Source: Cellulophaga sp. BC115SP (GTDB lineage: Bacteria; Bacteroidota; Bacteroidia; Cytophagales; Spirosomataceae). From it: a stretch of DNA of 64,000 nt. The stretch spans positions 62,001 through 126,000 of the forward strand of contig NZ_JAAALB010000007.1 in assembly GCF_009905545.1 (NCBI RefSeq). The letters are read 5' to 3'. The stretch's first letter is position 1. Every line of letters begins with the position of its first letter. Position numbers and translations under genes: made by a program. Positions 38,011-57,776 of this stretch are shown here, piece by piece. The notes under the pieces are model-generated. The model was not told the DNA's origin. It saw nothing but the letters and a program-made list of their open reading frames with translations, and searched no databases.

Positions 38011-38225
38011 TTACAAAAGCTCTTTTAACAACTCCTTAAGTTTAGGGTCTGATGGGCGAGGGGCGTCAGTATTGATAAATTTGCCATTTTTATCAACAAT
38101 CATATAGCGAGGAATGGATTTAATCTTATATTTTTTGGCAAGCTCCGAACCGAAATCTTTGGACAAAAGATAATTAGCAGATAGAGAAAGATCTTCGGCT
38201 TTTAAAGCCTTTATACCTAAGTGAA
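38011..38225 (-). pseudogene. C-terminal remnant of a TlpA-like thioredoxin gene
   Basis: The reverse strand encodes about 66 residues ending at a TAA (38011-38013): NYLLSKDFGSELAKKYKIK, then SIPRYMIVDKNGKFINTDA and PRPSDPKLKELLKELL. This matches the end of the TlpA-like protein at 52489-53901 closely, including the cis-proline SIPRYMI segment. The catalytic CxxC half is absent and no start fits. It follows a TonB-C gene, as its intact relative does, so it looks like the stump of a duplicated TonB-C/TlpA module. Confidence 0.8.
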
Positions 38226-38270
38226 AATGGGTTGAGCAAGCAGTATTTCTGAAAAACCTTAAAAGCCGAC

Positions 38271-38717
38271 CTAAGGAAACTGAATAGAAAAGTAGGTTTT
38301 ATATCTCAAGCGTTTACCGTCTTGTAAAGCAGGAATCCATGGTGCGGAGGCAAATAACGCTTCTTTTACATGACTTTCTAAACCTTTATCGGTATTGTTG
38401 GTAGGTAGAATATGAACAGAAGAGATGCAACCATTTTTTTCGATAATGATAGAACACAAAACCATGACCTTATCTTGTACGGAGCTTTTAATGTGCTTTT
38501 GTAGATATTGTTTTACAAAACGATTCAGCGCCATATTTCCTTCGAGGAACGTTGCAGGGTGTTGTGTTGCCATATATACCATCGTATCAGGGCTAATTTC
38601 TTGGTAAGAACTCATAAAAGGTTCAATATCAAATACCCTGATTGTATCTTGCTTTTGTGCAAGACTTGTACATGCCATCATACATATAAGAGAGAGATTG
38701 ATGAGAATGAGTTTCAT
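38271..38717 (-). CDS. Secreted TonB C-terminal-domain protein 1
   Basis: A 148-residue protein with an export signal that may end in a lipobox (MMAC, Cys16). The rest is a TonB-C-like domain: HPATFLEGNMALNRFVKQYL near 53-72, VMVLCSIIIEKNGCISSVHIL near 84-104 and PWIPALQDGKRLRY near 127-140. Unlike true TonB it lacks a proline-rich linker, so it cannot span the periplasm in the usual way. A close paralog lies at 54020-54469; the two copies sit at opposite ends of the peptide locus, each followed by a TlpA-like gene or stump. Confidence 0.82.
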   Translation of the reverse strand: MKLILINLSLICMMACTSLAQKQDTIRVFDIEPFMSSYQEISPDTMVYMATQHPATFLEGNMALNRFVKQYLQKHIKSSVQDKVMVLCSIIIEKNGCISSVHILPTNNTDKGLESHVKEALFASAPWIPALQDGKRLRYKTYFSIQFP

Positions 38718-38743
38718 AGTTGTAGGGTTTGTGTATATGTATC

Positions 38744-40204
38744 TTATTTCTTCAAAAACTCGTCCAAAAAACTTCGTATATGTTGATTGGTCGGTCTGGG
38801 TGCATTGTCGCTGATCATTGTGCCATCGCGTCCTACGAGCATATAACGAGGAATGGAACTTACCTTAAACTTGTCAGCAAATGCAGACTTTTTCCCTTCG
38901 GGCATTAGATAGTGAGTCGACGAATCTAAGCCTAATTCAGTAATAGCTTTTTGCCAAGCACTTATATTATCATCAATTGAAACATAAACAAACTTGATTC
39001 CTTTAGTAGAATATGCTTCTCTCAGTTGCTTTGAAGCAGGCATTTCTGCACGGCAGGGAGCACACCAAGAAGCCCAAAAATCTACATAAATAAGTTTATT
39101 CTCGTCTGTACTCAATAGCTCTCTCCATGTATGTGCCTCCAAATCTTTATTTGAAATAAGTTCGCTATCTAAAATGTCATTATTGGGGCCTAATCGTTTA
39201 GCCAGTATTTGTGGTTGAAAACTCTTGATGACGTATTCTTTTAAAAAGCTATCCGAAGCATATTGTAGGTATGCTTCTAGTGTCGTGTTTGTATTTTCTT
39301 GTCCTAATACCACCGCAGCACGGATTAAGTCATACATTGCCATTTCACGGATATTTCCTTTAAATGTTTCACTTGCAATGCTTATCAAGGTAGCTGCGTC
39401 GGTTGGCTGTTTTCTCTTAAGTGCCCAACTGTATAGAAATTGTTGAACGTAACTTCTTTGCTCGCTTGAATAGAAAAGAGCTTCATCTAATTTTACAGTG
39501 GTGCTTATTTCCTGCTCAATCAGCTCATGACTCTTTTTAAATGTTCCTCTATAAACAGAATAATAGCCAGACATCAAGCTTGAGAGTTTTCTGAATAGAA
39601 AAAGTGCGTGTAATTGTGAAATGAAAGAGGGACTTAATTCATGAATTTGCTGGTACTTACTCAAAAAATGCATACGACTCTCGAATTTCTCTCTAGCAAA
39701 TGTAATTTCATCAATGGCAGTGAATTGGACAGGCATTAAATCGGCTCCGAAGCCTTCAAATAAGCCCAGCTCCTTTTCCATTGCGACAAAAAAGCTGAGT
39801 TCATTTGTACGCACTTTATCCTTGGTACTAAAATGAGTGATGTTTTCCTTATCTTTTTCGACTAGGATTGATTCGTTGGGCTGGACTAAGAAGTTATTTA
39901 CCGTAAATCTCCCATGAAACTTACTGTAAAGTGTTTTTCGAGTGGGAGTACTATCAGTTACAATCACCAAAATAGGGTAGTCGAAGTGTAGCTTTAACAG
40001 GGTATCTTTCTGTATTTCGTATAAAACAGGACGTTCACCAAATATATCGTTATAGTAGAATTTGAACGGCTTCTCTTTTGAAGCTCGAATGTCTAATAAC
40101 GTGGAATCAGTTGTACGAATATTTTCAGCATATAGAATAGCGCTATGACTTTTAAATAGAAAGCATATCCAGAAAAAAGAGAGAAGGCAATAGGTTATGT
40201 ACAT
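38744..40204 (-). CDS. TlpA-like thioredoxin-fold protein A
   Basis: A 486-residue exported protein (hydrophobic N-terminus, residues 3-25, no clear lipobox). The first 350 residues are a helical/beta region of unknown function found in all six paralogs of the locus. The last 130 are a thioredoxin domain with VDFWASWCAPC (Cys381, Cys384) and the cis-proline motif SIPRYML. TlpA proteins reduce or reshuffle disulfides outside the cytoplasm. It is the last intact TlpA gene of the locus, 26 nt before the TonB-C gene. Confidence 0.88.
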   Translation of the reverse strand: MYITYCLLSFFWICFLFKSHSAILYAENIRTTDSTLLDIRASKEKPFKFYYNDIFGERPVLYEIQKDTLLKLHFDYPILVIVTDSTPTRKTLYSKFHGRFTVNNFLVQPNESILVEKDKENITHFSTKDKVRTNELSFFVAMEKELGLFEGFGADLMPVQFTAIDEITFAREKFESRMHFLSKYQQIHELSPSFISQLHALFLFRKLSSLMSGYYSVYRGTFKKSHELIEQEISTTVKLDEALFYSSEQRSYVQQFLYSWALKRKQPTDAATLISIASETFKGNIREMAMYDLIRAAVVLGQENTNTTLEAYLQYASDSFLKEYVIKSFQPQILAKRLGPNNDILDSELISNKDLEAHTWRELLSTDENKLIYVDFWASWCAPCRAEMPASKQLREAYSTKGIKFVYVSIDDNISAWQKAITELGLDSSTHYLMPEGKKSAFADKFKVSSIPRYMLVGRDGTMISDNAPRPTNQHIRSFLDEFLKK

Positions 40205-40303
40205 GATTTTATGAGGTTTAGAAATAGGAGTAAAAGTTTGATTTAGAAAAAAACTACTAAATCCTTAGTTATAACAAATTTTAGAAAATATATTTTCATT
40301 TCC

Positions 40304-40409: not shown

Positions 40410-41888
40410 CTAATTGGTCTTTGTCAATTGCTTAATGATTTCTTGAAGTTTGGATTCGGAAGGACGTGGAGCATTGAAATAAGCTATATTCCCTTGCTGG
40501 TTAATAATGATATAGCGAGGAATAGTGGACAAACCCCAGAATGAACTTAATATGTCATCATTGGCTTTGGTTCCTAGAATCCTATATGATTCAACTCCTT
40601 CGGGTAGATTCTTTTGAGCACTCTTTTGCCATTTTGATTGTTCTGAGTCAATGGAAATATTAATGAAGACCATCTCATTTTTGTATGAACGTATGATTTT
40701 TTTTAAGCTTCCAAATTCAGCTATACATGGACTGCACCACGAAGCCCAGAAATCAACAAAAATGATTTTTCCTTTATGTTTTTTCAAAATATCATTTAGT
40801 TCACTTCGCTCACCAATACTATTTTCTAGTGATAGCTTTTGCACATCTTCTGGGATAGAAAGATTTGATTCTGTGAAGTTTAAGTGGTTAACAACCTTGA
40901 TAAAGAGGCTATCTTTTATCTGATTTTTTGTGTTATGAAAAAACTGTTGAATGGAAAAGTCATAGCGCTGATTTTTGTTTTCAGCAATATCTCTCAACAG
41001 TGTATATAACAGATAGTCTCTTGTAGTCCCCTTAAAATTTGTATTGATAGAATGTGTGAGGCGATTTAAACTCGACAGGTTATTCCAATAGTCATTACCA
41101 TTTTTGATTTGATTCTTGTATTGCCAAATATAGTTTAGGCAAAAACTTCCATACGAAACCATGTGAAGAAGACTATCATTTTGCTGAAAAGAGGTCTTAA
41201 TTTCTTTAAAAAAATCTGCGTCTAGTGTCGTATGATTAGTGTAGTATAGTGTGCTAATTAAACCGTCGAAATATTGAAACTTTAAGTCATTTAGTACCCA
41301 TGATTTGAACTCATTACTAACAGGATATTGAAGACTAAAGTTATTAAACTGGTTTCTGCGAAAATCATATTCCTCTTTTAATCTTGCCTTATACTGACTA
41401 AAATTCTGAAGATAATCTTCAATGTTGATATTCAGTAAACTTGAAGTTTCTGGGTCAGAAAACTGTTGATAATAGAGATAATTACCCTTGTTTTGAGAAG
41501 ACAATACTTGGAAGATTGTCTTGGGTAAATCAGAATGAGCGTCTTTTTTGATGGAAATATTTAGATGGACAGAATCGTGAGGACTAACAAAAATTCCTTG
41601 ATGTGCCAATTGAAAGAGTGCTGGCTTATCGATTTTTAGTTTGATTTGATACTCCTTTTGTGGTTTATCTAATGCTATACGAGCTATTGGGGCTCTATCT
41701 TGAAGCGCATAGTTGAACTGATACAAGGGAATATTATCAATTGATTCTAACTCAGGAGAGACATTGATGGTACCATATAGAGTAGCGTATGACCCACCTG
41801 TATTATCAGATTTTTCTGTTTGTTTACATGAGCCTAATAAACAAATGATTGTGATAAAACAGAGGGTGGTGGTGTAAATCTTGTTCAT
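40410..41888 (-). CDS. TlpA-like thioredoxin lipoprotein B
   Basis: A 492-residue lipoprotein (lipobox LLGSC, Cys21). The N-terminal domain is about 350 residues and the C-terminal thioredoxin domain has FVDFWASWCSPC (Cys385, Cys388) with TIPRYII as the cis-proline motif. It is the most divergent of the six TlpA paralogs by eye. It follows the HlyD gene by 94 nt and so may belong to the export half of the locus. Confidence 0.88.
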   Translation of the reverse strand: MNKIYTTTLCFITIICLLGSCKQTEKSDNTGGSYATLYGTINVSPELESIDNIPLYQFNYALQDRAPIARIALDKPQKEYQIKLKIDKPALFQLAHQGIFVSPHDSVHLNISIKKDAHSDLPKTIFQVLSSQNKGNYLYYQQFSDPETSSLLNINIEDYLQNFSQYKARLKEEYDFRRNQFNNFSLQYPVSNEFKSWVLNDLKFQYFDGLISTLYYTNHTTLDADFFKEIKTSFQQNDSLLHMVSYGSFCLNYIWQYKNQIKNGNDYWNNLSSLNRLTHSINTNFKGTTRDYLLYTLLRDIAENKNQRYDFSIQQFFHNTKNQIKDSLFIKVVNHLNFTESNLSIPEDVQKLSLENSIGERSELNDILKKHKGKIIFVDFWASWCSPCIAEFGSLKKIIRSYKNEMVFINISIDSEQSKWQKSAQKNLPEGVESYRILGTKANDDILSSFWGLSTIPRYIIINQQGNIAYFNAPRPSESKLQEIIKQLTKTN

Positions 41889-41982: not shown

Positions 41983-43344
41983 TTATATATTTATGCTTAA
42001 CTGTATTATTATCTTTCTAAAACTATAAAATAGACGTTCTAATAATCTTAAATCTTCTGTTACAATTTCAGCACTAGCCATCATTTCTGGTCGGAAGCTT
42101 ATACTTTTATTGAAGGTTGTTTTTAGCTGATGCGGCAATTGTATTTTTATACGGTATTGGTTGTTTGAAGTACTTGATGAAATATCTTGAATAGTTCCAT
42201 CAATACTTCCATACTCCTCTGGTGCATAGTTTGAAAGTTTGATGATTACTTTTTGTCCAACTTTTACTTTTCCAAAGTTTTGTGAGGAAACATTTGCATA
42301 CCCAATATAATGTTGCTTTTGGGGTAATACCGACATTAAAGTATCATTTGCGTGAATCACTTGATTTTCTGTTAAATTCCTTAAAAAAGCAAGGTAACCA
42401 CTTGAAGGAGCCGTAATGATATAATTTTGTTTCCAGTTTGCTATAAGATTATCAATGTTTTGAATAGACTGCGCAATATTATCTCGAAAAGTTCTGGTCT
42501 TTTGGATGTATTCAAAATCTAGCTCGTATAATTGTTTTTCTTTTTCGGAAAGAGTCAAGCTATTTTCTACTAATACCTTTGCATAGTTTTCATTTTCCTT
42601 TTTCTTTTGTAAAAAAGCGTTCTCAAAACCTAGAAATTCAAGTTTACCGTAGACTTTCTCATTGTACATCTTTTTGTCGGCCAGATATTTGGTTTCCACA
42701 TTTCTAAACTCCTCTTTATTTATTTCTACTTGTTTTTGGTTTATTTCTACCAACTTTTTGTAGTCAATAATCTGTTGTGTGAGTATTTTTTTTCTTTGAA
42801 GATAAATGGCATCATTGATAAGTCTTTCTGATTCTTCATAGTTTTTAAGTAATAGGTTGTATTCCGACTGTAGATCTCCGAATGTGATGGTGTGTAATGG
42901 AAAAATAACTTTATCGTTATTATTCGTTAAATATCGTTGTGCTTGATGAGCCAAAGTTTGTAATATAGGAATATTTTCTAAACGTGTGGTATTTTCTATT
43001 TCTGCAATATAGTCTCCTTGATTTATCCACTGCTCTGGCTTGACTAATATTTTTTGTAATCTACCCGAAGACTTTGATATAACCTTCAAGGGTTCTATCT
43101 CAGTTGTAATTATGGCATTACCCTTAATCACCTCGGGATATTTGATATACCATGAAATTATAATACTTAACATTCCTATTAAAGCAATAATAGATAGACC
43201 AAAACGGATAATAAAAGCTGGACGATTTGATAATATATCGTTAACCTCGTCTGAGCGAAGTTCAAGAGGAGGTCTTAGGGTGGGCTTTGGAGAAACTACT
43301 GAACCATTTATAGGTGGCTTGGGTGTTTGGATGATGCTTTCCAT
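41983..43344 (-). CDS. HlyD-family secretion protein (membrane fusion partner of the peptide exporter)
   Basis: A 453-residue type I secretion adaptor. It has one transmembrane segment (about 44-67), a lipoyl-like half motif (VISKSSGRLQKILVKPEQWI near 89-108), a long coiled coil (about 125-300), the second lipoyl half (ITAPSSGYLAFLRNL) and a beta-barrel C-terminus. It would bridge the peptidase-ABC transporter to an outer-membrane channel. The exporter gene ends 35 nt upstream. No TolC-like gene lies in the window, so the outer-membrane exit must be encoded elsewhere. Confidence 0.92.
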   Translation of the reverse strand: MESIIQTPKPPINGSVVSPKPTLRPPLELRSDEVNDILSNRPAFIIRFGLSIIALIGMLSIIISWYIKYPEVIKGNAIITTEIEPLKVISKSSGRLQKILVKPEQWINQGDYIAEIENTTRLENIPILQTLAHQAQRYLTNNNDKVIFPLHTITFGDLQSEYNLLLKNYEESERLINDAIYLQRKKILTQQIIDYKKLVEINQKQVEINKEEFRNVETKYLADKKMYNEKVYGKLEFLGFENAFLQKKKENENYAKVLVENSLTLSEKEKQLYELDFEYIQKTRTFRDNIAQSIQNIDNLIANWKQNYIITAPSSGYLAFLRNLTENQVIHANDTLMSVLPQKQHYIGYANVSSQNFGKVKVGQKVIIKLSNYAPEEYGSIDGTIQDISSSTSNNQYRIKIQLPHQLKTTFNKSISFRPEMMASAEIVTEDLRLLERLFYSFRKIIIQLSINI

Positions 43345-43379: not shown

Positions 43380-45569
43380 TTAGTTGCCTAATTCTAATTG
43401 ATTTTTGACAAGATTAAAATACTCACCACGTTTGGATGTTAGACTTTCGTGAGTGCCAATCTCGGTAATCTCTCCATTGTGTAAAACGATAATTTGATTA
43501 GCATTTTTGACAGTGCTGAGTCTATGCGCTACCACAATAACAGTTTTTCCTTTGAAAAATGAATTTAAGTTTTCTAGAATGGTTTTCTCGTTATTGGCAT
43601 CTAAAGCGTTAGTTGCTTCATCAAAAAACAAGTACTCGGGGTTTTTATAGACAGCTCTGGCAATCAACAAGCGTTGTTTTTGTCCTTGACTTATGCCATT
43701 GCCTTCCGAACCAATTTTGGTATTAAAGCCCAAAGGTAAGCTTTCGATAAAGGGCAAAATATTCGCCACTTCACAAGCATGGTATAGTTTTTCAAGGTTG
43801 GGTTGTTCGTCGCCCAAAGCGATATTCCGAGCAATAGTATCAGAAAAAATAAAACCATCTTGCATTACGATACCACACCTACCTCGCCAATCTCGTGCCC
43901 TAAAGCTATCAAAAGGTACATTTCCTATTTTGATTTCGCCTTTTATGTCATAAAACTTCAATAATAGTTTCAGTAATGTGGTTTTCCCACTTCCACTTGT
44001 TCCTACAATTGCAGTTACTTTTCCCTCTGGAATATCTAGATTGATATTTTTTAAAACAGGATCATTACCCGCTCCTGGATAGGTAAAGCTTAAATTTTTG
44101 ATGGAAATGCCCACATGATGTTTACCATTAGGGTTGTACGTAATTTGTTCTTTTTTCTCTTCATCTTCCAATTCATGGATTTCATTCAATCGTTCTAAGC
44201 TAATTTTAGCACTTTGGGCAGCTTGTACAAATTGGATCAGTGCTTCAATCGGGGCATTCAGTTGCCCAATAATGTATTGGACTGCCAGCATTGTTCCTAA
44301 AGTTAGTTGACCATCAACCACGGCTTTGGCAGAGAAAAAAGTGATTAAGATATTTTTCCCTTCATTCAAGAAAAACGCTCCTGCTTGTTGGTACTGGTTT
44401 AAAGCCAATCCTTTTGTTTGAAATTGAAACATTCTGGTTTGAATACGCTCCCATTCCCAGCGTTTGAGGTGTTCGGCATTGGCTAATTTTATTTCTTGCA
44501 TTCCCTGAATCAATTGTACCAATGAGCCTTGATTTTTGGCAGCCACATCAAACATTTTGAAATCTAATTTGCGTCTTTCTTTTAAAAAAAGTATGACCCA
44601 AAATGCGTAGAGAACAGACCCAATCATAAAAATGGAAAAGATAGGCAAACTATATAATGCCAACACACAGCCAAAAATCAGCAGGTTGACCATGGAGAAA
44701 AGCGTATTGAGCGTTTGCCCCGTCATAAACTGCTCAATACGGCTATGGTCGCCAATGCGTTGCATAATGTCGCCAAACATTTTTGTATCAAAAAATGACA
44801 TGGGCAACTTCATCAGTTTTATCAGAAAATCGGAAAGGATTGAGAGATTGATACGGATACTGATATGCAGTAATATCCATGAACGGATAAACTCTACGAC
44901 GGTTCTACTGGCAAAAAGCATCAATTGTGCCGCCAGCATGACATAAATAAAGTTTAGATTACGTGTCTGAATGCCAACATCAACAATAGACTGCGTAAGG
45001 AAGGGAAAAACCAATTGCAAGCCACTGCCCACTAACAAACCAATGGCTAACTGTATCAATAGTTTTTTATATGACCAAAGGTATTTGAGAAGATACGAAA
45101 AATCTAAGCCCTGTTTTTTATCGTCCTCTTGTTCATAAAAAGCAGGGGTTGGTTCTAATAGCAAAGCTACGCCAACAGGTTGACCATCTTCTTGCGTAGT
45201 AGCCCAATGCTCGCAAAAATCATCTTTAGCTATTTTGCGTAAACCTTTGGCTGGATCAGCCAACAAAACAGTGTTTTTTTGTACCTCAACCAAAACCACA
45301 AAGTGATTTTGTTGCCAGTGGATAATACAAGGAAACGGGGCATCTTTGATTAATTTATTAAAAGGAACTTTTACGGCGATAGTTCTAAAACCCATGCTTT
45401 CGGCCGCCTCCGCAATACCCAACAATGAAACGCCCTCCCGACTAAACCCCGAAGCATCTCGAAGCCTTTGAATATTTAGACTCAGCCCATAGTGTTTGGC
45501 TATCATGCGTAAACAAGTAGGGCCACACTCCATTTGGTCGAGTTGTTGGTAGAAGGGGAAGTTGGGCAT
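43380..45569 (-). CDS. Peptidase-containing ABC transporter (C39 family), GG-leader peptide exporter
   Basis: A 729-residue PCAT. The N-terminal C39 peptidase domain has its catalytic Cys15 (QMECGPTC), His89 (QQNHFVVL) and Asp105 (LADPAKG). Six transmembrane helices span about 165-440, and the ATPase has Walker A GTSGSGKTT, signature ISQGQKQRL and Walker B YLFFDEATNALD. Such proteins cut leader peptides after a double glycine and export the core. Three GG-leader peptides in the same locus are the obvious substrates, and HlyD follows directly. Confidence 0.96.
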   Translation of the reverse strand: MPNFPFYQQLDQMECGPTCLRMIAKHYGLSLNIQRLRDASGFSREGVSLLGIAEAAESMGFRTIAVKVPFNKLIKDAPFPCIIHWQQNHFVVLVEVQKNTVLLADPAKGLRKIAKDDFCEHWATTQEDGQPVGVALLLEPTPAFYEQEDDKKQGLDFSYLLKYLWSYKKLLIQLAIGLLVGSGLQLVFPFLTQSIVDVGIQTRNLNFIYVMLAAQLMLFASRTVVEFIRSWILLHISIRINLSILSDFLIKLMKLPMSFFDTKMFGDIMQRIGDHSRIEQFMTGQTLNTLFSMVNLLIFGCVLALYSLPIFSIFMIGSVLYAFWVILFLKERRKLDFKMFDVAAKNQGSLVQLIQGMQEIKLANAEHLKRWEWERIQTRMFQFQTKGLALNQYQQAGAFFLNEGKNILITFFSAKAVVDGQLTLGTMLAVQYIIGQLNAPIEALIQFVQAAQSAKISLERLNEIHELEDEEKKEQITYNPNGKHHVGISIKNLSFTYPGAGNDPVLKNINLDIPEGKVTAIVGTSGSGKTTLLKLLLKFYDIKGEIKIGNVPFDSFRARDWRGRCGIVMQDGFIFSDTIARNIALGDEQPNLEKLYHACEVANILPFIESLPLGFNTKIGSEGNGISQGQKQRLLIARAVYKNPEYLFFDEATNALDANNEKTILENLNSFFKGKTVIVVAHRLSTVKNANQIIVLHNGEITEIGTHESLTSKRGEYFNLVKNQLELGN

Positions 45570-48958: not shown

Positions 48959-50428
48959 TTATTTTTCTTTAAGTAATTCATCAAAAACCTTTATCAGTCG
49001 AGGGTCGGAAGGACGTGGGGCATTTTGATTAATCACTACCCCTTTAGCATCAATAATCATGTACCTAGGAATAGAGATAACCTTATATTTTTGAATTAAT
49101 GTATTGTTTTTAGGATTGGTTATTAAGAAGTTTTTCTTCAAAGGTAGAGTAAGTTGATTTATCGCCGTTTTCCATTGAGTAGCATTTTGATCAGTGGAAA
49201 GGTATATGAAGTTTATATCCTTTTCATACTTTTCTTGTAACTTTTTAGAATGCGGTACTTCGACTCTACAAGGGCCACACCATGATGCCCAGAAGTCAAC
49301 ATAGGTAAGTTTATTTTCCTTTAGTAATTCACTCAATGACTGCTTTTGATTTTGTACAGATAACACTTCATCACGGTTATTGATTGGAGTAAAAAAGAAT
49401 GCATATTTATCACGGACTATATTTTTAGCTGTACTATCTTGAGTATTGGTAAGAAAAGAATCGTAGTATCTTTTACTAATATTTCTCGAAAAAGACTTGA
49501 AAATCCTGTCTAATTCTCGCATTAAAAGAAAGTTTTTATGTCTTGTTAGAAATAGGTCACTCTGGTTTATTTTATCATATATTTCAGCGTAGTCTCTATT
49601 AGTAAGATCATTAAATGGAATTTCTTTAGCTTTTTCGACAATAAATTTATCGGTAATACATTCAGCTAATTTGTAATGGTATTTGTCGGGGTACAGAAGC
49701 GTATTAGGGTAGGAGTTTAGTAATATTCTGGCAGAATCAAAGTTTATTTTAGATTCCAAGATATTTAGTGAAAGCAAGAAGGTCTTAAATTTTGTTTTAT
49801 TAAAACTAGCCGTATTGGAGGAAATTAAGGCATTTTGCTCTAAAGAATCTACTATTTGAGTAGCCGATTTTATACAAACGGCAATTTCCTCAAATGCTTG
49901 TTTTTTTACGAGATACTTTTTTTTAGGAGTCTTCAATGCCTCCTCAATAGACATAAAATGTAGTGGATTGTAGTATTTTTTAACTAAAATTAATGGGGTT
50001 TTCTGTCTGTGATATAATATTTCATCTACCTTAAATTCTAAAGGCTGAGTTGTTCTGTTGGTAACATTTATCGCTATTTGCTCATTATTTAAAGATAGAA
50101 TAACCTTATCTCCATTTTTAACAACTACTTCAACTTCACTTTGTAAGGTTCTACAATTGAGTATATAGAAATCGTCTTCAGTAGAGAATAATAAGGTTGT
50201 GATTGTATCTTTTAATGACTGTTTGTTGAGTATTTCAATCCCATTAGGATGATGACTATCATACACAGTTACATACGGAAATAAATACCAAAAATTATTG
50301 TACTTATCAATATTACGTTTTGTTTGTTTATCCATTGTCACGACTATAGAATCAGGTTTTTGAGTCTGTGAAATAGATGAAAAACAGATGGTTATGAAAA
50401 GTAATAGGAAGATGAGATTGACTTTCAT
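48959..50428 (-). CDS. TlpA-like thioredoxin protein D
   Basis: A 489-residue secreted protein (signal MKVNLIFLLLFITICFSSIS, no lipobox). The thioredoxin domain has YVDFWASWCGPC (Cys384, Cys387; CGPC is the classical reducing thioredoxin pair) and SIPRYMI, and it ends PRPSDPRLIKVFDELLKEK as in E and F. It lies between TlpA-like gene E and repeat block 1 and is not directly next to a peptide gene, so it may have lost its partner or come from a separate duplication. Confidence 0.88.
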   Translation of the reverse strand: MKVNLIFLLLFITICFSSISQTQKPDSIVVTMDKQTKRNIDKYNNFWYLFPYVTVYDSHHPNGIEILNKQSLKDTITTLLFSTEDDFYILNCRTLQSEVEVVVKNGDKVILSLNNEQIAINVTNRTTQPLEFKVDEILYHRQKTPLILVKKYYNPLHFMSIEEALKTPKKKYLVKKQAFEEIAVCIKSATQIVDSLEQNALISSNTASFNKTKFKTFLLSLNILESKINFDSARILLNSYPNTLLYPDKYHYKLAECITDKFIVEKAKEIPFNDLTNRDYAEIYDKINQSDLFLTRHKNFLLMRELDRIFKSFSRNISKRYYDSFLTNTQDSTAKNIVRDKYAFFFTPINNRDEVLSVQNQKQSLSELLKENKLTYVDFWASWCGPCRVEVPHSKKLQEKYEKDINFIYLSTDQNATQWKTAINQLTLPLKKNFLITNPKNNTLIQKYKVISIPRYMIIDAKGVVINQNAPRPSDPRLIKVFDELLKEK

Positions 50429-50581: not shown

Positions 50582-52039
50582 TTACTTTTCTTTGAGTAAT
50601 TCATCAAAAACTGTCTTAAGTTTAGCATCCGAAGGACGTGGAGCGTCAGCATTTAAGACTTTACCATATTGGTCAATAATCATATATCTGGGAATACTTG
50701 TGATATTAAACTGCGATAATATGGCAGAGTTTTTAGATGAACCTATCAAATAATGGCTTTCCTTTGACATATTTCGGGCAAGTATGGAGTTTTCCCAATG
50801 TTTGTAGTTTTCATCTTGAGAGAGATAAATAAAGTTAATGTTGGGATATTTTTTCTGAACCTCATGCGAATATTTCATTTCTTCAATACATGGTTTGCAC
50901 CAGCTTGCCCAAAAATCTAAATAGGTGATTTTCCCAGCATTTTTTTCCAGAAACTGTTTCCAAGTAAGCGTTTTTTTGTCTGAAAAATGAATAACAGTCG
51001 AACTGTCTAATGATTTATTTCCACTCGAATTTAAAGTATTCGCCATGAATTGATATTGCTCTTTTAGATTATTTTTCAATACAATATTTTCTGCATCTTT
51101 TTGGAAATAAGTATAAAGCGTAGAGATATGTTTAGAAGTATTGAGAATACAAAAATCAACGAATCGATATAAAATGATGTCTCGTGTTTTGCCTGAGTAT
51201 TTGGTTTTAAGGTTTTGATAGAAGTCTATTTCAGATTTGTCTGATTGCAACAAAGATTCTAACAAAAGGACAGAATACCCATAAATTGGAATTTCGCTGG
51301 CACTATCATCAATTTTAAAATCAGCAAGAAAACGAGCTACTTGAGCATCCTTAACGATAGCTTTATTTTTTAGGAGATTTTCTTGGTAGAGAGCCAAGAA
51401 ATCAGAATATTGTTTGTAGTAAAATTCTTTGCTGATGAAATCTTTGAAAGATGCACTTGAATGATTGACTTTAAAGAATTGATTGGCAAACGCTATACGA
51501 TTTTGATAAGCTTCTTTGATTTTTTGTAGTCTTACCGCTGGTTTATCATCACGGAAGGGTGTTGGCACATACCAGCCTTCATAGTTTCCAAATTGTTCTC
51601 TGAACTGAGGGAAAAATGAAAGCTCTTTACTTCTTTGCTCAGATTTGCCAGAAATGCTGGTGATTGATTGAGGCTTTTCAAGAAATACGGTATCGTTTGG
51701 ATATAACAAAAAAGTATGTTGTACAACCTGAATATTTTTACCGCTTCTAATCATATCAGAACTATTGAGTTTAACGGGAATATTACTTTTTATAAAGATG
51801 GTATCGTGGGCTGAGGTAGCTTCATAAGGTTGAGTAGCGGCATCAAGCAAAGAAGACCAATCAAAAAAGATTTCCTTCTGCAAAGGGTTTTTGACAATAA
51901 TTGTGATGTTTTGAGATAGCTCTGTTGATTTTGAATCTGAAACTGCACTATTATTTTTTTCATTATTACATGAAAAGAAAATGATACCTAAAATGACGAG
52001 AAAGCAATATTTCATATTTGTGAAGTTTATAGTGAGCAT
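50582..52039 (-). CDS. TlpA-like thioredoxin lipoprotein E, downstream of peptide 2
   Basis: The 485-residue frame probably starts at the internal ATG at 52015, giving 477 residues with a clean lipoprotein signal (MKYCFLVILGIIFFSC). The thioredoxin domain has YLDFWASWCKPC (Cys381 and Cys384 in the longer numbering) and SIPRYMI. It begins within 70 nt of the end of the peptide 2 gene. A broken copy lies at 46679-46947, nearly identical at the 5' end, which shows recent duplication. Confidence 0.88.
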   Translation of the reverse strand: MLTINFTNMKYCFLVILGIIFFSCNNEKNNSAVSDSKSTELSQNITIIVKNPLQKEIFFDWSSLLDAATQPYEATSAHDTIFIKSNIPVKLNSSDMIRSGKNIQVVQHTFLLYPNDTVFLEKPQSITSISGKSEQRSKELSFFPQFREQFGNYEGWYVPTPFRDDKPAVRLQKIKEAYQNRIAFANQFFKVNHSSASFKDFISKEFYYKQYSDFLALYQENLLKNKAIVKDAQVARFLADFKIDDSASEIPIYGYSVLLLESLLQSDKSEIDFYQNLKTKYSGKTRDIILYRFVDFCILNTSKHISTLYTYFQKDAENIVLKNNLKEQYQFMANTLNSSGNKSLDSSTVIHFSDKKTLTWKQFLEKNAGKITYLDFWASWCKPCIEEMKYSHEVQKKYPNINFIYLSQDENYKHWENSILARNMSKESHYLIGSSKNSAILSQFNITSIPRYMIIDQYGKVLNADAPRPSDAKLKTVFDELLKEK

Positions 52040-52081: not shown

Positions 52082-52297
52082 TTATGCACAACTAGTACAG
52101 CACCATCCATAACCTGCACCGCCTTGCTTCGCCCATTGAATAGCTTCTGCTTTCGTGAAAATACTTGGACTTTGCTGTCTTATTCCCGCACCTTTAGCGC
52201 CACCTGACCAGTGGACTACTGCACATGCTCCACCTTTTACATTTTTCATCTCTGTCCTTGACAAAGCTGAATCAGTGAAATTCACTAAACTTTTCAT
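52082..52297 (-). CDS. GG-leader cysteine-rich peptide 2 (putative bacteriocin precursor)
   Basis: A 71-residue precursor with the common leader (MKSLVNF, SALSRTEMK, ending VKGG at residue 23). The 48-residue core is glycine- and alanine-rich and has cysteines at 25, 66, 67 and 70. It shares with peptide 1 an early cysteine, FTKAEA against YTKSEA, and WCCTSC against WCCTGC at the end, so the two are members of one peptide family. TlpA-like gene E follows, and a partial VKOR-gene tail precedes it. Confidence 0.85.
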   Translation of the reverse strand: MKSLVNFTDSALSRTEMKNVKGGACAVVHWSGGAKGAGIRQQSPSIFTKAEAIQWAKQGGAGYGWCCTSCA

Positions 52298-52408
52298 TGT
52301 TTTTTAAGGTTAAAAATAAATCTATTGTTGATTTGCAAATCCTATTGTTGAGTAATGCTTGATGATTTTCTCTACATCACGAGCCAAATATTTTTTTGGT
52401 ATTTCATG
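52229..52408 (-). repeat. Repeat block copy 2: shortened VKOR-gene tail plus GG-leader start
   Basis: 52322-52408 repeats the last ~87 bases of the VKOR-thioredoxin gene with a few differences, then diverges. The gap and the leader codons of peptide 2 are shared with the other two blocks. It is shorter than copy 1, which suggests an older or independently trimmed duplication. Confidence 0.8.
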
Positions 52409-52488
52409 GTTATTCAAAGAGCAAAAACCGCACTTAAATCCTTTTATTTAAGCCTGTAACTTTAATCTAATTGTTCATCATGTTTTTG

Positions 52489-53901
52489 CTATTTTTCTTT
52501 TAGTAACTCATCAAAAATCTCTTTTAACTTAGGGTCAGATGGGCGTAAAGCATCGGCATTTATCACTTTACCATCTTTGCCGATAATCATATATCTTGGT
52601 ATAGACTCAATCTTAAATTTCTTGGCTAATTCTGATTCATTTCCTTTTGGAAGCAGATAATTTTCATCTTCTCCTAAACCAATTTGTCTAATTGCTTTTT
52701 TCCAAGCAGAAGGATTCTCGTCTATTGATATATAAATAAAATTTATACCTTTTTTTGAAAAAGCTAATCTCATTTTTTTAGATGCTGGCATTTCTGCTCT
52801 GCAAGGGGCACACCATGAAGCCCAAAAATCAACAAATGAGATTTTCCCTTTTATTACTTTATTTAGAGGAATTACCTCATTATTGATATTAACAAGCTCA
52901 TCTATTTTCAAATTAGTATTATTAAGTATTATTCTTTCCTTTATATAATCCTTAAACTCATCTGTTTTGCATATACTCAAAAATGTGTTTGTCATTTGAG
53001 TTTTTTCTTGCTGAGATACTTTAAATCCATAATTCCTATCATCTGTTTTTTGTAGCAAGTCAAACATTAGCCAATCTCGAATTTTACCTTCAAAATGCTT
53101 AACAGAAATACTCATTAAATTAGGTAATGTATTAAAATCAGATTTATACTTTAAGTATGATATAAGTAAACGATGAAACGATAAATATGATTGAAAATGA
53201 GGAATAAGTAAATCGGCATCTTTTATGTCTTCATTATTGACTTCTGCCGCAAAGGCTTTGATAACATCAGGACTTAATTTATTGTACTGACTAAAATTGA
53301 GCTTTGAAGATAATTTTTCATAAATAAGTGCACGCCTCCATACATTTATAACCATACTATCTAACTTATGTAATTGTGTATATTCATTTAAAAAGGCAAC
53401 TTTTTTATTATACAAGTTGTCATGATATAAGTTTCTTTTTTTAAACTCATCATCATTTTTAATATTACTAAACTTGAAAATTCTATCGAAAGAGTCCTGT
53501 TCGGATTTTATAGGGTCGATAGCTTTTCGAATCACTAAATCAACATTCAATAAATAGTCGAGATTAGGGTTCTGTGTTTCAATAAAAAAATATCCCTCAG
53601 AATCTTTTTTAAACTCAATTCTTTTTATACTGTCTGGGACAAAAAAGCTTAATTGGTGTTTCCAATGAATATCGGTTATAAATACGCCTCTTGGAACTTT
53701 TGTAATACCTCTATTTATATCATAACGATTACCAAATAAGTCATTAAACCCCAATACCACGTCATTGTCATATTGGGTATTTAAAATTACGATAAGCGAA
53801 TCTTTTGATATATTCTTTCTCACTAGACTTCTTTCATCTAGTTTATTTTGACCGCATGAAATAGTTAGAAAGATAAAAGATATCAAATAAATTATTTTCA
53901 T
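52489..53901 (-). CDS. TlpA-like thioredoxin lipoprotein F
   Basis: A 470-residue lipoprotein (lipobox LTISC, Cys16). The thioredoxin domain has FVDFWASWCAPC (Cys364, Cys367) and SIPRYMI. It resembles protein A in the CAPCRAEMPASK stretch and is the closest relative of the 38011-38225 stump. It follows the second TonB-C gene by 118 nt, in the same order as TonB-C and stump at the other end of the locus. Confidence 0.88.
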   Translation of the reverse strand: MKIIYLISFIFLTISCGQNKLDERSLVRKNISKDSLIVILNTQYDNDVVLGFNDLFGNRYDINRGITKVPRGVFITDIHWKHQLSFFVPDSIKRIEFKKDSEGYFFIETQNPNLDYLLNVDLVIRKAIDPIKSEQDSFDRIFKFSNIKNDDEFKKRNLYHDNLYNKKVAFLNEYTQLHKLDSMVINVWRRALIYEKLSSKLNFSQYNKLSPDVIKAFAAEVNNEDIKDADLLIPHFQSYLSFHRLLISYLKYKSDFNTLPNLMSISVKHFEGKIRDWLMFDLLQKTDDRNYGFKVSQQEKTQMTNTFLSICKTDEFKDYIKERIILNNTNLKIDELVNINNEVIPLNKVIKGKISFVDFWASWCAPCRAEMPASKKMRLAFSKKGINFIYISIDENPSAWKKAIRQIGLGEDENYLLPKGNESELAKKFKIESIPRYMIIGKDGKVINADALRPSDPKLKEIFDELLKEK

Positions 53902-54019: not shown

Positions 54020-54469
54020 CTAAGGAAAGTTAAATGCTAAAATAGTTTTATACCTTAATTTTCTACCGTCTTGAGTTGCAGGAATCCATCTTGGAGATGA
54101 ATATAGAGTATTTTTTATACTATTTTCTAACTCTGGATTATTGTGCGTTATCATTTCTACTTCGGAAATACATCCATTTTTTTCTATAATGACCCAACAC
54201 AAAATCTTAGTTTTGTTTTTAACAAATTTTGTAACATTTCTTAATGAAACTCTTTTGATATAGGAATCAAGTGAGTCTTTACCTCCAATAAATACTGCGG
54301 GGTACTCAGTAAACATATATGCTATTGTATCTGGATTTTTGTTTTGATAAGACTCCATAATTGATTTGACATCTATTACTGTAATGGTATCTCCTCTTTG
54401 TGAAAAAGCACTATTGGTAAAAAATATAGCCAAAATTGTAACCATAAAAAGTACAAATAAGGTTTTCAT
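54020..54469 (-). CDS. Secreted TonB C-terminal-domain protein 2
   Basis: A 149-residue protein beginning at the ATG at 54469, where a signal peptide starts (MKTLFVLFMVTILAIFF..AFSQ); a longer frame would run back through the peptide 3 gene. The mature part is a TonB-C-like domain with YPAVFIGGKDSLDSYIKRV, IIEKNGCISEVEMI and RWIPATQDGRKLRYKT, matching the paralog at 38271-38717. It starts 4 nt after the peptide 3 stop, so the two are probably translationally coupled. The role is unknown. Confidence 0.82.
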   Translation of the reverse strand: MKTLFVLFMVTILAIFFTNSAFSQRGDTITVIDVKSIMESYQNKNPDTIAYMFTEYPAVFIGGKDSLDSYIKRVSLRNVTKFVKNKTKILCWVIIEKNGCISEVEMITHNNPELENSIKNTLYSSPRWIPATQDGRKLRYKTILAFNFP

Positions 54470-54473
54470 AATT

Positions 54474-54743
54474 TTAATGTTTTGTTTTAAATTGATATCC
54501 TCCAACCGTTCCTCCAGGGGCAGTATAACAGCCATAAACTTTTACATGAGAAGCCCCGACAAATTGATTCCTGTAGCCAGTATCACATTTGCCCACAGAA
54601 TTCATACTACAAGCTCCAAGTCCTACTATATGTAAATTATCATACCATACAGAATAACTACAATATATTACATCACCACCTATTACATTTTTCATCTCTG
54701 CCCTTGACAAAGCTGAATCAGCGAAATTCACTAAACTTTTCAT
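54474..54743 (-). CDS. GG-leader cysteine-rich peptide 3 (putative bacteriocin precursor)
   Basis: An 89-residue precursor with the common leader (MKSLVNF, SALSRAEMK, ending VIGG at residue 23). The 66-residue core is unlike those of peptides 1 and 2: it is tyrosine- and glycine-rich with evenly spread cysteines at 28, 45, 53 and 72. The same leader on an unrelated core is what a leader-directed export and maturation system would tolerate. It starts 31 nt after the intact VKOR-thioredoxin gene and ends 4 nt before a TonB-C gene. Confidence 0.85.
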   Translation of the reverse strand: MKSLVNFADSALSRAEMKNVIGGDVIYCSYSVWYDNLHIVGLGACSMNSVGKCDTGYRNQFVGASHVKVYGCYTAPGGTVGGYQFKTKH

Positions 54744-54914
54744 TGTTTTTGTTTTTTAAGGTTAAAAAATAAATCTATTGTTGATTTGCAAATCCTGTTG
54801 TTGAGTAATGCTTGATGATTTTCTCTACATCACGAGCCAAATAAATTTTTGGTATTTCACAATTGTTCAAAAAAGTAGTTGGTGCTTCACTTATTCCTGC
54901 TAATTCAAGCCAAC
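54675..54914 (-). repeat. Repeat block, parental copy: VKOR-gene tail plus GG-leader start
   Basis: 54775-54914 is the true 3' end of the VKOR-thioredoxin gene and 54675-54743 the leader of peptide 3. This is the source arrangement for the copies at 48692-48930 and 52229-52408. Confidence 0.8.
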
Positions 54915-56409
54915 GTAGGTGTATTGCTAATTGCTGTTGTCCTTGAGGGGTAGCTTCTACTTTGTCTATTTTTCGTATCCAATTGTTTATATTTTTGGAA
55001 CTGTCCTTAAACCATTCATCAATCGCTTTCATAATGGCTTCATCAGTGTCTTGACCCAGGATGATTCTTGCAACTTTTGCCGCTTCATCGTCTAAAGCTA
55101 AGGATGTTGCTAAAACTATATGCACGTTAATATCTATATCGCTTTCTAACAACCTTTTTGCTGTTAAATACGAAGTTCTACATGAAGCACACATGGGATT
55201 TAAAACCAGAATTAACCTATTTGAGGCATGTGGATTTCCCAATTGTAAAGTGTTTAAACCTTTGAAAAATGGAGGTAAAAGCAACTCCTTAGATAATAAT
55301 AAACTGATGTATTCTGGAGAAAGCTTAAGTTTTTGAAATTCTATATAGAGACTATCTGTTCGTAGTGATTTTTTTAATGGAGTCTTCACAAAAGCCCAAA
55401 AAATAGGGAAGATGAAGAATGATATACATGATAATAGGAAATTGTATCCTTGAAAAAGGCTTAATTCAACATTCTGAAATGAAATCGGTAACAATAACAA
55501 AAACTCCGTCCAAAGTAAAATCTGAACACATACACACATTGGACACCATTCTTTTACAACAATAGCTTGATAATAGATAGACCAAAATGTATAGGGTAGT
55601 GCCATAAGTGTAAAAAACAGAAGATATTTTGTCGCATCTGTATTTATCAATAATAATGCTAAGAAACCTCCAGTAAAATAGAATAAACCTATTTCAGACC
55701 AAGTTAGCCAACCCCAAAATTTACTTGCTTGAGAGTTTAGAATATTACTACAATTTGTTTTACTATTAATCTGACAAACACTTTTTAAAAAAGAATTATT
55801 AGCATCAAAATCATACCAAACCAACATAGTTGATGTTATGATACCAAAAGTTTTTGTCAGTAATAGAGCATAAAATTGAAAATTACTATCAATCGGTATT
55901 TGTTGCAGAATAGGATAAAGTATTATGCCTATAACTGTAAGCAAACCTGTTATTACGAATGGGATTCTTAGCTTTTCAACGATTTCATTTTTTCGTGCTT
56001 CTTTATAGTTTACTTCTCCAGATTGAGCATTAGGTTCAACCAATAGTGTTATACCATGCCATTTATGGATAAAATTATGAATTGGTTCTTTAAAAACTCC
56101 AGCGGTATCATGATACCATTCAACCAAATCATGCTCAATTTTTTTGATAGTGACAAACGTCCCACCATTTGCTTCAAAATAAGCAATAGCGGGCACTGGA
56201 ATAGTATGTAGTTGTTCGACCGAAAGTTTTGTAGCTAAATTAGGTATGTTAAACTCATTCAAAACATCACTCATTCCTAACAAAGTAGTAGCATTTTGAT
56301 GTTGTAGAAGTTTGTTTTTTAGACTTGTTGCTGTTACATTGATATTTGAGAACTTTATTAATTGCCAAAGTGCCTCAAAAGCATTTTTTTCGTTAGGATT
56401 TAATGTCAT
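54775..56409 (-). CDS. VKOR-family disulfide oxidase with dead C39-like N-terminus and C-terminal thioredoxin domain
   Basis: A 544-residue fusion. Residues 1-130 resemble a C39 peptidase domain (LLGMSDVLNEFNI, PAIAYFEANGGTFVTIKKI, WHGITLLVEP) but lack the catalytic Cys and the His, as in non-proteolytic domains that only bind substrate. Residues about 148-345 are membrane helices with the VKOR loop cysteines (Cys212, Cys220) and active-site pair WCPMC (Cys289, Cys292). Residues 395-540 form a thioredoxin/DsbA-like domain with CASC (Cys407, Cys410). VKOR passes electrons from the thioredoxin domain to quinone, making disulfides. It overlaps the upstream glycosyltransferase gene by 4 bp. Confidence 0.88.
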   Translation of the reverse strand: MTLNPNEKNAFEALWQLIKFSNINVTATSLKNKLLQHQNATTLLGMSDVLNEFNIPNLATKLSVEQLHTIPVPAIAYFEANGGTFVTIKKIEHDLVEWYHDTAGVFKEPIHNFIHKWHGITLLVEPNAQSGEVNYKEARKNEIVEKLRIPFVITGLLTVIGIILYPILQQIPIDSNFQFYALLLTKTFGIITSTMLVWYDFDANNSFLKSVCQINSKTNCSNILNSQASKFWGWLTWSEIGLFYFTGGFLALLLINTDATKYLLFFTLMALPYTFWSIYYQAIVVKEWCPMCVCVQILLWTEFLLLLPISFQNVELSLFQGYNFLLSCISFFIFPIFWAFVKTPLKKSLRTDSLYIEFQKLKLSPEYISLLLSKELLLPPFFKGLNTLQLGNPHASNRLILVLNPMCASCRTSYLTAKRLLESDIDINVHIVLATSLALDDEAAKVARIILGQDTDEAIMKAIDEWFKDSSKNINNWIRKIDKVEATPQGQQQLAIHLRWLELAGISEAPTTFLNNCEIPKIYLARDVEKIIKHYSTTGFANQQ

Positions 56410-57776
56410 AGTCCTAATTGATTTAGCGTTTTGTTTATGTTGTTTAGAGTATAAGAGCTTTTGATATGCTGATTTACTTCTCTGATTTTCTCTCTGAAAA
56501 CATCCTGATTAAGTAATTGATCTATCTTGGTTCTCATATCGTGAGTACGCTCGTAAGCGAAATTCCCTCTAAGTCCAATACCATGTAATTCCACTTTCAA
56601 ACCATTTCCATTTTGGTCGTATTGTAAATCCAAAGGATAAACCAACATGGGTACTTCATATTCAATTGCTTCTTTAATAGAGCCTAAACCGCCATGTGTA
56701 ATGAACAAATCGGCTTTTCTTAATACTTCAAGCTGTGGTACACGAGTAAAAAAAAGGATTTTTTCTGATATTTTTTGTTGTGATTTAAGGGTCTCAATTA
56801 CGAAATGATTTACAGAAATGATTAGGTGAACATCTTCTAACTCATTTATTATACTGATTAAATTTGATATAAAATTTAAAAGTGTTTTATCTGGTCCAGT
56901 ATAGTAAGTGCCAAAACTACAGTATATCATTTTTTGTCCCTTACTTTTAACTTTTGTGAGGTTTTCCCAAGCATCCAGAAACGTCTTATCCAATTCTGTA
57001 TCTCTCCTCTGATTTCTGGTGCATAAGCCTAAGTAATGTTGCCAGTCTCTTTTTACTTCAGACGATACTTCAAATTCGAGTGGTGCTGCGATGATCTCAG
57101 GAATACCTTTAAACATTTTCGTGAAAGCATTGTCTTTATCTAGAGTATCTTCTGTAACTCCGCTTTCTTTAAAAATTCTTCGATTTTGTTGTTCATTTAG
57201 GTAGCTCAATAACCATATTTTAGGTTTTTTAATATGATTCCAAAAATGCGTAGTTATTGAAAACTCAATCTTCCTATTAGCATTACTAATATTTTTATTT
57301 TTTATCCATGTACCATCAGAAACTATAGGGTAACCATCTATCTTATACGTCGATAACATAGGATTAAAAAAAATAATATTCAATTCTTGATTTATCGTTT
57401 TCAACACGAAATAATCGGTACTACTAAATATATCAATAATGACAGTTTGGGGGTTAATATTTTGAATAAGTTTAACAAGCTCTCGTTTTCTGAATTCAAA
57501 AATCTCATTCTTACGATAGGCTCTCACTAAACTCCAAAAACTTAGTGTTTGCTTTTTTTCAGATAAAATATAGCCAGGCTCCATGCCTATCATTATTCTG
57601 AATTGGCTATGCATGACACTATTATAACCATTTTCTTCCACTAATTCCTTTAATACGTCATTTGTTACAGCAAAGTAGATATCATATTTTTCAGCAATGA
57701 GATCTGCAAGATACATGGCTGGCATTACGTGGCTACGAATGGAGGCAGTCAGAAATAAAATATTTGATTTGCTCAT
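56406..57776 (-). CDS. GT-B glycosyltransferase (GT1/UGT, macrolide-transferase type)
   Basis: A 456-residue cytoplasmic enzyme. The N-terminal half opens SNILFLTASIRSHVMPAMYLADLIAEKYD, the C-terminal half has the nucleotide-sugar motif FITHGGLGSIKEAIEYEVP and DLQYDQNGNGLKVE near residues 360-395. GT1 enzymes glycosylate small molecules and occasionally peptides. As the first gene of the peptide locus (overlapping the VKOR gene by 4 bp) it probably modifies the peptides or a related product, but the acceptor cannot be read from sequence. Confidence 0.85.
   Translation of the reverse strand: MSKSNILFLTASIRSHVMPAMYLADLIAEKYDIYFAVTNDVLKELVEENGYNSVMHSQFRIMIGMEPGYILSEKKQTLSFWSLVRAYRKNEIFEFRKRELVKLIQNINPQTVIIDIFSSTDYFVLKTINQELNIIFFNPMLSTYKIDGYPIVSDGTWIKNKNISNANRKIEFSITTHFWNHIKKPKIWLLSYLNEQQNRRIFKESGVTEDTLDKDNAFTKMFKGIPEIIAAPLEFEVSSEVKRDWQHYLGLCTRNQRRDTELDKTFLDAWENLTKVKSKGQKMIYCSFGTYYTGPDKTLLNFISNLISIINELEDVHLIISVNHFVIETLKSQQKISEKILFFTRVPQLEVLRKADLFITHGGLGSIKEAIEYEVPMLVYPLDLQYDQNGNGLKVELHGIGLRGNFAYERTHDMRTKIDQLLNQDVFREKIREVNQHIKSSYTLNNINKTLNQLGL

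Follow-up and report, generated by a model that had tools for sequence, protein, structure and literature searches.

The genome assembly of Cellulophaga sp. BC115SP (GCF_009905545.1; 7.08 Mb in 206 contigs) carries on contig NZ_JAAALB010000007.1 a run of genes of about 20 kb, which includes three small peptides with a GG leader and, immediately ahead of one of them, an oxidase in which a degenerate C39-like domain is joined to VKOR and thioredoxin domains. The window is the whole stretch of 64,000 nucleotides that was analysed (contig positions 62,001 to 126,000), and coordinates of this locus are window positions. The parts named in a first-pass annotation of this DNA, which include the peptides, the exporter, HlyD, the oxidase, two glycosyltransferases (GT1 and GT2) and the TlpA-like proteins (Tlps), are all found in place on the minus strand. 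The three peptides have a common leader of 23 residues and four cysteines each, as was claimed, and the count of six Tlps holds for the clear Thioredoxin_8/ResA-like proteins, to which one chimeric pseudogene and one 3' fragment have to be added. The enzyme described as 'VKOR-thioredoxin' does contain VKOR; however, its N-terminal C39-like domain had been overlooked and its C-terminal domain is of the DsbA/ScsC type. Likewise, the two secreted 'TonB-C' proteins are present, but their TonB_C match (E 0.05-0.07) is under the curated cut-off. Neither a radical SAM nor a lanthionine enzyme is found among the 19 locus proteins scanned, in line with the first-pass annotation. The features are as follows, in the order of transcription from start to end; G037 and G066 are two genomes of the same genus.

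56406..57776, minus strand: GT1, glycosyltransferase of the GT1/UDPGT family, with which the run begins (PF00201, E 6.3e-9)
54775..56409, minus strand: oxidase with a degenerate C39-like domain, VKOR and a DsbA/ScsC-type thioredoxin domain
54474..54743, minus strand: peptide 3, GG leader and four-cysteine core, immediately behind the oxidase gene
54020..54469, minus strand: small secreted TonB_C-like protein beside peptide 3 (PF03544, E 0.05, weak); its best start, 54469, lies behind the peptide stop
52489..53901, minus strand: Tlp6, ResA/TlpA-like, with a variable N-domain
52325..52417, minus strand: VKOR 3' remnant (codons 514-544) ahead of peptide 2
52082..52297, minus strand: peptide 2, GG leader and four-cysteine core, with the C-terminal end GYGWCCTSCA
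50582..52039, minus strand: Tlp5
48959..50428, minus strand: Tlp4 (intact 96.5% identical copy in G066)
48794..48928, minus strand: VKOR 3' remnant (codons 500-544) ahead of peptide 1
48557..48760, minus strand: peptide 1, GG leader and four-cysteine core containing HWCCTGC
46947..48458, minus strand: Tlp3, structure predicted (pLDDT 89.3)
46680..46947, minus strand: Tlp pseudogene, a Tlp5-type 5' end fused to a Tlp6-type 3' end
45613..46668, minus strand: GT2, a Glyco_tranf_2_4 glycosyltransferase (PF13704, E 3.6e-21)
43380..45569, minus strand: PCAT, a C39 peptidase-ABC exporter (Peptidase_C39, E 4.6e-37)
41983..43344, minus strand: HlyD-family adaptor
40410..41888, minus strand: Tlp2 (frameshifted copy in G066)
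38744..40204, minus strand: Tlp1 (intact 95% identical copy in G037, same site)
38271..38717, minus strand: second small secreted TonB_C-like protein (broken copies in G037 and G066)
38011..38166, minus strand: Tlp 3' fragment

Distribution of the locus and cysteine parity of the peptides

The combination of genes had been regarded as unusual, which is not supported. Of 200 genomes of the family, 56 contain relatives of the oxidase, and 432 of 458 pattern matches on GTDB contigs are oxidase relatives, of which 80 were fetched; the same oxidase is found in named relatives including Emticicia, Runella, Arcicella and Dyadobacter. Far from being unique to the source genome, loci of this type are widespread in Bacteroidota. 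The comparisons below use 101 loci (the window, the 80 from GTDB contigs, and 20 more from the family genomes), many of which end at contig borders, with several on short contigs. The co-occurrence that the first-pass annotation suggested looking for is seen in this set, with peptides of the leader type in 80 loci, PCAT in 68 and HlyD in 62. GT2 is present in nine loci, while GT1 stands upstream of the oxidase, at a distance of up to 3 kb, in 21 and downstream of it in 14, and these counts rule out the GTs as core parts of the pathway.

A hidden Markov model of the leader retrieves 127 peptides across the 101 loci, and in 59 loci a peptide stands right behind the oxidase gene. The number of cysteines in the core is even in 118 of the 127 peptides (P 1e-25) and in 96 of 105 core clusters, with nine odd (P 8e-20), whereas no leader contains a cysteine. 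The recurrence of leader-type peptides in homologous loci and this parity imply that the observation made in the window is not due to chance. A control was provided by 30 loci of the same family with TIGR04149-like leaders (L184, L186 and L203, being unreadable, were excluded), in which the cysteine number is even in 19/19 peptides lying within 12 kb of a VKOR fusion, these 19 overlapping with the 127, and in 3/8 peptides elsewhere (Fisher P 0.0007). Hence, the oxidase goes together with fully paired cysteines. The cores have a median length of 50 residues, consist of cysteine to 11.5% and are slightly acidic (mean net charge -1.9).

Against the TIGR04149 family of peptides modified by radical SAM enzymes, the window peptides score 17.1, 22.1 and 17.1 bits, below the cut-off of 25, and no family matches any of the three above its own cut-off. 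The presence of two GTs had raised the possibility of S-glycosylated cysteines as in sublancin. S-linked glycocins have an unpaired cysteine, whereas each window core has four, a parity read from the sequence; even parity leaves no spare cysteine for S-glycosylation, which is thus ruled out as the principal explanation. The 'minus 8 Da' given in the first-pass annotation as the mass shift to look for is a slip, since two disulfides make a peptide 4 Da lighter. A locus in G007 (L157, 1478-8746) combines two Tlps, PCAT and HlyD with a GG peptide of three cysteines, and no VKOR fusion was matched in that genome; a similar three-cysteine peptide is found in L082. The former is possibly a sister system without the oxidase.

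The fusion oxidase and its predicted orientation

The oxidase has 544 residues, with matches to Pfam Peptidase_C39 at 14-128 (E 1.1e-11) and VKOR at 182-305 (PF07884, E 2.5e-16), followed by the thioredoxin domain; the C39-like domain extends over residues 1 to about 132. An AlphaFold2 model was built on an alignment of 77 sequences (76 of the 77 listed oxidases and that of the window) and has a mean predicted local distance difference test score (pLDDT) of 91.3. By Foldseek its C39-like part resembles the PCAT1 peptidase and its C-terminal part ScsC/BdbD/DsbA-type proteins, and a sequence profile likewise pairs the C39-like domain with the PCAT1 peptidase. The catalytic cysteine, located by alignment to the window's PCAT, is kept in none of the 77 oxidases (two have gaps), so that the domain as read from its sequence is not an active C39 peptidase. 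The two cysteine pairs expected of a VKOR are invariant (residues 212, 220, 289 and 292; 77/77), with a median C220-C289 spacing of 70 residues (66-79; 75 in the control L215). In the CxxC of the thioredoxin domain, C410 is invariant and C407 is kept in at least 90%.

A degenerate C39-like domain is known from exporters, for example HlyB. In the toxin exporters of gram negative bacteria such a domain has been proposed to recruit the substrate (PMC6363468), and a similar role may be proposed here, with the difference that the domain sits on the oxidase and not on the exporter. In the LahT C39 structure treated in the same source, hydrophobic pockets receive residues -4, -7 and -12 of the leader. 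Among the leaders of the 127 present peptides, 90% have V/I at position -4, 73% have M at -7 and 93% have L at -12, matching these contact positions, although the match is partly circular because the leaders were picked with the leader profile. With its C39-like domain the oxidase would dock the leader of the peptide, and the electrons taken from the cysteines of the core would pass to quinone.

Hydropathy predicts six transmembrane (TM) segments, TM2 and TM3 lying close together, and this count places the C39-like domain, the cysteine loop, the CxxC and the DsbA domain all on the same side of the membrane. It is derived from hydropathy and the VKOR fold; the AlphaFold model draws TM2-TM3 as one helix, which is a weakness of the count. 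According to the positive-inside rule, the positively charged side of a membrane protein faces the cytoplasm. Lys and Arg residues number on average 13.1 on the catalytic side and 1.05 on the opposite side, with the same sense in 77/77 (the window and 76 relatives), and in membrane-proximal stretches of similar total length the values are 5.5 and 1.1, again in 77/77. The bias recurs in 9/9 additional fusions, which were taken from other families within the class and phylum and bring the total to 86/86. A hydrophobic N-terminal stretch resembling a signal peptide is found in only 3/77 oxidases. Together with the missing signal peptide, the charge bias predicts that the catalytic parts are cytoplasmic, and the fusion oxidase would then act before export, introducing disulfides into the precursor.

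VKORs of the same phylum without a C39-like match served as controls, and 18 of 20 (7/7 and 11/13) have the normal orientation, with more positive charge before TM1 and in the TM2-3 loop and the later cytoplasmic loops. These come from 30 fetched VKOR loci, of which 17 were scored with the VKOR profile (seven without and ten with a C39-like match, one of the latter being the window) and the remaining 13 were read in the later control set only; L214-L217 are four genomes of one genus. The two exceptions, the single-domain VKORs of L218 and L229, have no C39-like domain and yet show the reversed bias, so that the reversal is typical of the fusions and the notion that it is exclusive to them is ruled out. 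Both (L218, 1483-1968; L229, 1489-1908) are stand-alone VKOR-like proteins whose charges predict an active site facing the cytoplasm, and no GG peptide was seen by eye in either neighbourhood. Cytoplasm-facing VKORs exist in archaea.

The oxidase could instead be orientated as canonical VKORs are, with a periplasmic C39-like domain and disulfides made after export. Known VKOR-DsbA proteins do act in the periplasm, and both cysteine pairs and the DsbA domain share one side in either orientation. This arrangement is nevertheless unlikely, because the Lys/Arg bias of 86/86 fusions is opposite to that of 18/20 VKORs without a C39-like match, an N-terminal domain of 130 residues would need to be translocated with no signal peptide to guide it, and the leader to be bound is normally removed on the cytoplasmic side.

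Cassette displacement and the possible role of the TlpA-like proteins

The DNA that comprises the VKOR end, the spacer and the leader (196-244 bp) is 91-94% identical between peptide 3 and the other two peptides, while the cores cannot be aligned. Leader included, the stub region is 244 bp at 93.9% ahead of peptide 1 and 196 bp at 91.3% ahead of peptide 2. The same two small changes relative to the intact VKOR end and its spacer are found in both stubs, which is expected if the newest cassette arrived with a new VKOR end. As read from the sequence, the locus is a cassette array in which displaced cassettes keep a stub of the oxidase 3' end. We infer a mode of exchange in which a peptide and its adjoining Tlp gene form a cassette that is exchanged behind the oxidase gene. 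A second VKOR-like match is found in 13/101 loci, and a C-terminal VKOR stub lies less than 400 nt ahead of a secondary peptide in the window (twice), L094, L117, L147, L151 and L152; L094 has an N-terminal piece besides, and L152 also whole VKOR copies. Similarly, G024 (L168) has a stub-peptide-Tlp module beyond HlyD. The chimeric pseudogene of the window shows its two sources on self-comparison (46726-46913 with 51842-52029 at 94.7%; 46680-46725 with 52490-52535 at 87%).

Two further loci deserve mention. L152, from Sediminibacterium salmoneum, contains five VKOR copies or pieces and five peptides in 21 kb and is the clearest array. L169 (G001, 6922-12438), from the same genus as the window, is a decayed copy of the locus with a VKOR stub, a stop-bearing Tlp, a split PCAT and HlyD.

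The Tlps have a thioredoxin (Trx) fold with CxxC in 95/96 of those at the loci and in 22/22 labelled solitary. Foldseek assigns the Trx domain of the Tlp3 model to the ResA/TlpA type, while the best 50 matches listed concern this domain only and none covers the N-domain. The Tlp alignment comprised 28 of the 56 listed Tlps and the six of the window. In a partial Mantel test on 62 peptide-Tlp pairs from 46 loci (oxidase similarity removed; L092 dropped as a near-duplicate of L088), core similarity is correlated with that of the N-domain (rho 0.10, P 0.014) and not with that of the Trx domain (P 0.33). When 36 ordered pairs are compared by a rank test, the top-3 share is 0.58 for the N-domain and 0.44 for the Trx domain, with a permutation P of 0.002 for each. 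This covariation indicates that a Tlp and its peptide tend to travel together; which Tlp domain carries the specificity is less sure. The Tlp is not a universal partner, an idea ruled out by its presence in 56/101 loci and behind 70/127 peptides. A further 29/127 peptides precede an unlabelled gene, some of these genes being, by eye, other secreted thioredoxins, N-domain-only proteins or glycosyltransferases.

Tlps are also found without peptides. At the same chromosomal site, with flanks 91-97% identical, G037 and G066 lack the oxidase, peptides, exporter, HlyD and GTs. G037 retains an intact Tlp1 (95%), and G066 an intact Tlp4 (96.5%) and another intact Tlp of 456 residues. Genome-wide, neither contains a VKOR fusion or a TIGR04149-like peptide; a C39 match is absent from G066, and the single one in G037 lies away from the site. 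When these copies are compared pairwise with the window, the ratio of non-synonymous to synonymous substitutions (dN/dS) lies at 0.23-0.32 in Tlp1 and at 0.11-0.17 in Tlp4. Of 20 stretches around N-domains of the Tlp3 or Tlp1 type, 16 are devoid of peptide, oxidase and exporter genes within their length; these 16 come from 15 genomes, in 11 of which the oxidase had no match. A separate housekeeping clade of solitary Tlps is unsupported, as solitary and module Tlps interleave with 12 changes in a quick tree with many long branches, in which the solitary label is still clustered (0/500 shuffles as low).

The six Tlps of the window are more readily understood as partners paired with the peptides, immunity being mildly preferred to folding because some Tlps are kept where peptides and oxidase are missing. 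In peptide-less genomes a foldase would be idle, whereas an immunity protein would not, and this mildly favours the Tlps as cognate immunity proteins. The competing proposal, that the Tlps are peptide-specific periplasmic foldases or isomerases which finish or correct the disulfides, with peptide-less Tlps as leftovers or otherwise employed, is somewhat less probable than not. Pediocin-type operons have thioredoxin-like accessory proteins with such a task, and the putative thiol-disulfide oxidoreductase PedC is reported to raise pediocin potency; the bacteroidetocin oxidoreductase is required for activity (PMC6671954). The Trx fold with CxxC and the Tlp-core covariation would suit a foldase equally, and three of five Tlps in G066 are broken. 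However, the intact Tlp1 of G037 and the two intact Tlps of G066 stand in genomes without a VKOR fusion or a TIGR04149-like peptide, the pairwise dN/dS is low for the two Tlps compared, most Tlp stretches (16/20) lack peptide, oxidase and exporter, and the Trx domain is ResA/TlpA-like. Thioredoxins of the ResA/TlpA type are usually reductants, and a reductive direction for the Tlps is suggested by this resemblance alone.

Taken together, the best explanation of the whole, with a probability of roughly 0.57, is a leader-docking oxidase that faces the cytoplasm, export by PCAT and HlyD, and exchangeable peptide-Tlp cassettes, with the Tlps likelier to provide immunity. Hypervariable, fully disulfide-paired secreted peptides would be made from precursors with a constant GG leader; the disulfides would be formed in the cytoplasm, ahead of export, and PCAT would cleave after GG and export the peptide with the help of HlyD. 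Outside the cytoplasm the Tlps would be peptide-specific partners that bind the core through their N-domain and perhaps reduce it. The gene content, domains, cysteine parity, charge bias, stubs, covariation and peptide-less Tlps are features of the sequences themselves, and the functions are predicted from them. Of the complete make-fold-modify-export pathway for a bacteriocin or signal proposed in the first-pass annotation, the make-fold-export part for disulfide peptides is upheld by the even-cysteine cores, the adjoining oxidase with VKOR and DsbA-type domains, the C39 exporter and HlyD; that the product is a bacteriocin or a signal is conjecture. An antagonistic function of the peptides may be suspected. 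A fuller picture would be a redox arms system, in which leader-directed disulfides are made before export, a peptide-specific Tlp reductase disarms each toxin, cassettes are swapped and orphan reductases persist in non-producers; as a whole this is doubtful. It is quite improbable that the peptides serve as signals or have a structural role after secretion, with the Tlps as receptors or turnover factors: the slightly acidic cores and the lack of a family match above the cut-off for the three window peptides are in favour of this reading, but antagonism agrees better with the hypervariable cores, the displaced cassettes and the retention of partner genes without peptides.

Several observations weigh against the preferred reading of leader docking, oxidation before export and Tlp immunity. 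The peptides include nine with odd cysteine numbers, and one additional fusion, that of L062, has kept just one of the four VKOR cysteines. The single helix drawn for TM2-TM3 and the reversed charge bias of L218 and L229 affect the predicted orientation. As for the Tlps, their covariation with the core is weak by the Mantel test and extends to the Trx domain in the rank test, and barely more than half of the loci and peptides have one. In G066 three of the five Tlps at the site are broken (Tlp2 frameshifted, Tlp1 internally deleted, and a frame of 365 residues without a start, to part of which window stretch 38000-38212 is 92% identical). The dN/dS values are pairwise with the producer, whose own branch makes up half of the path, and the 20 Tlp stretches, drawn from 34 rows, were selected chiefly because they are located outside known oxidase loci. 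Finally, the thiol oxidoreductase of bacteroidetocins is needed for activity and confers no immunity (PMC6671954, section 7).

Relation to known systems and wider meaning

The nearest described system, when compared by description, is that of the bacteroidetocins, which are class IIf bacteriocins of Bacteroidales (Coyne et al., 2019, PMC6671954). Like the present loci, theirs brings together, in Bacteroidota, a four-cysteine GG peptide, a C39-ABC exporter and a thiol oxidoreductase. Their leader has 15 residues against 23 here, and their four-gene region (a protein with five TM segments, the peptide, the thiol oxidoreductase and the transporter) is not what is found here. Unlike bacteroidetocins as far as described in the passages cited, the present loci have the VKOR fusion and its predicted orientation, HlyD, optional GTs and Tlp cassettes. 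Pediocin-type class IIa loci with PedC likewise place a thioredoxin-like accessory gene beside a disulfide bacteriocin; they are not known to have a VKOR, and their immunity gene is a separate one.

The sublancin-type glycocin operon of gram positive bacteria (sunA-sunT-bdbA-sunS-bdbB) similarly combines a GG precursor, a C39-ABC exporter, a thiol oxidoreductase, a quinone oxidoreductase and a GT2-type glycosyltransferase. Its oxidase is of the DsbB type without a C39-like fusion, whereas the loci described here have a VKOR-type fusion, even cysteine numbers and optional GTs. By analogy the locus may work like the sublancin operon, but it cannot be filed there. The orphan toxin-immunity modules of Rhs and contact-dependent inhibition systems offer a parallel to the cassettes, as there, too, a stub of the constant gene stays with each displaced module and partners persist alone; here the modules concern small exported peptides and the stub comes from a maturation enzyme and not from a toxin carrier.

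In the literature searched, which covered few subscription journals, no description was found of a C39-VKOR fusion with GG peptides, of leader-directed disulfides made before export by an inverted VKOR, or of thioredoxin-like peptide-specific immunity; the main text of a VKOR phylogeny (PMC4555120) mentions neither 'C39' nor 'Bacteroidetes'. What is new here is the oxidase design, the displacement of cassettes and the keeping of partner genes without peptides. If the preferred reading is true, bacteria can introduce disulfides into secreted peptides as a leader-directed modification, made before export by an inverted VKOR, and disulfides would join the modifications in the style of ribosomally synthesised and post-translationally modified peptides. 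Likewise, a peptide-specific thioredoxin-like protein could be an immunity factor that undoes the disulfides of a toxin. A mining rule for disulfide peptides of Bacteroidota follows, namely to search directly behind C39-VKOR fusions, where they are found in 59/101 loci.

A few minor features concern the site and the spaces between the genes. By eye, the site in G037 (L153, 3128-14255) holds genes for a P450, a ferredoxin, an FAD reductase, an aldehyde dehydrogenase and PEP-synthase-like proteins and a regulator, and that in G066 (L154, 11287-15040) a TonB-dependent receptor with its partner lipoprotein; with the different insert of G037, the site looks like an exchange hotspot. A scan for promoters and terminators gave counts not above those of shuffled sequence and is uninformative. 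Two long inverted repeats are present at 48495-48535 (88%) and 40304-40347 (95%), and the former, between peptide 1 and Tlp3, possibly limits read-through.

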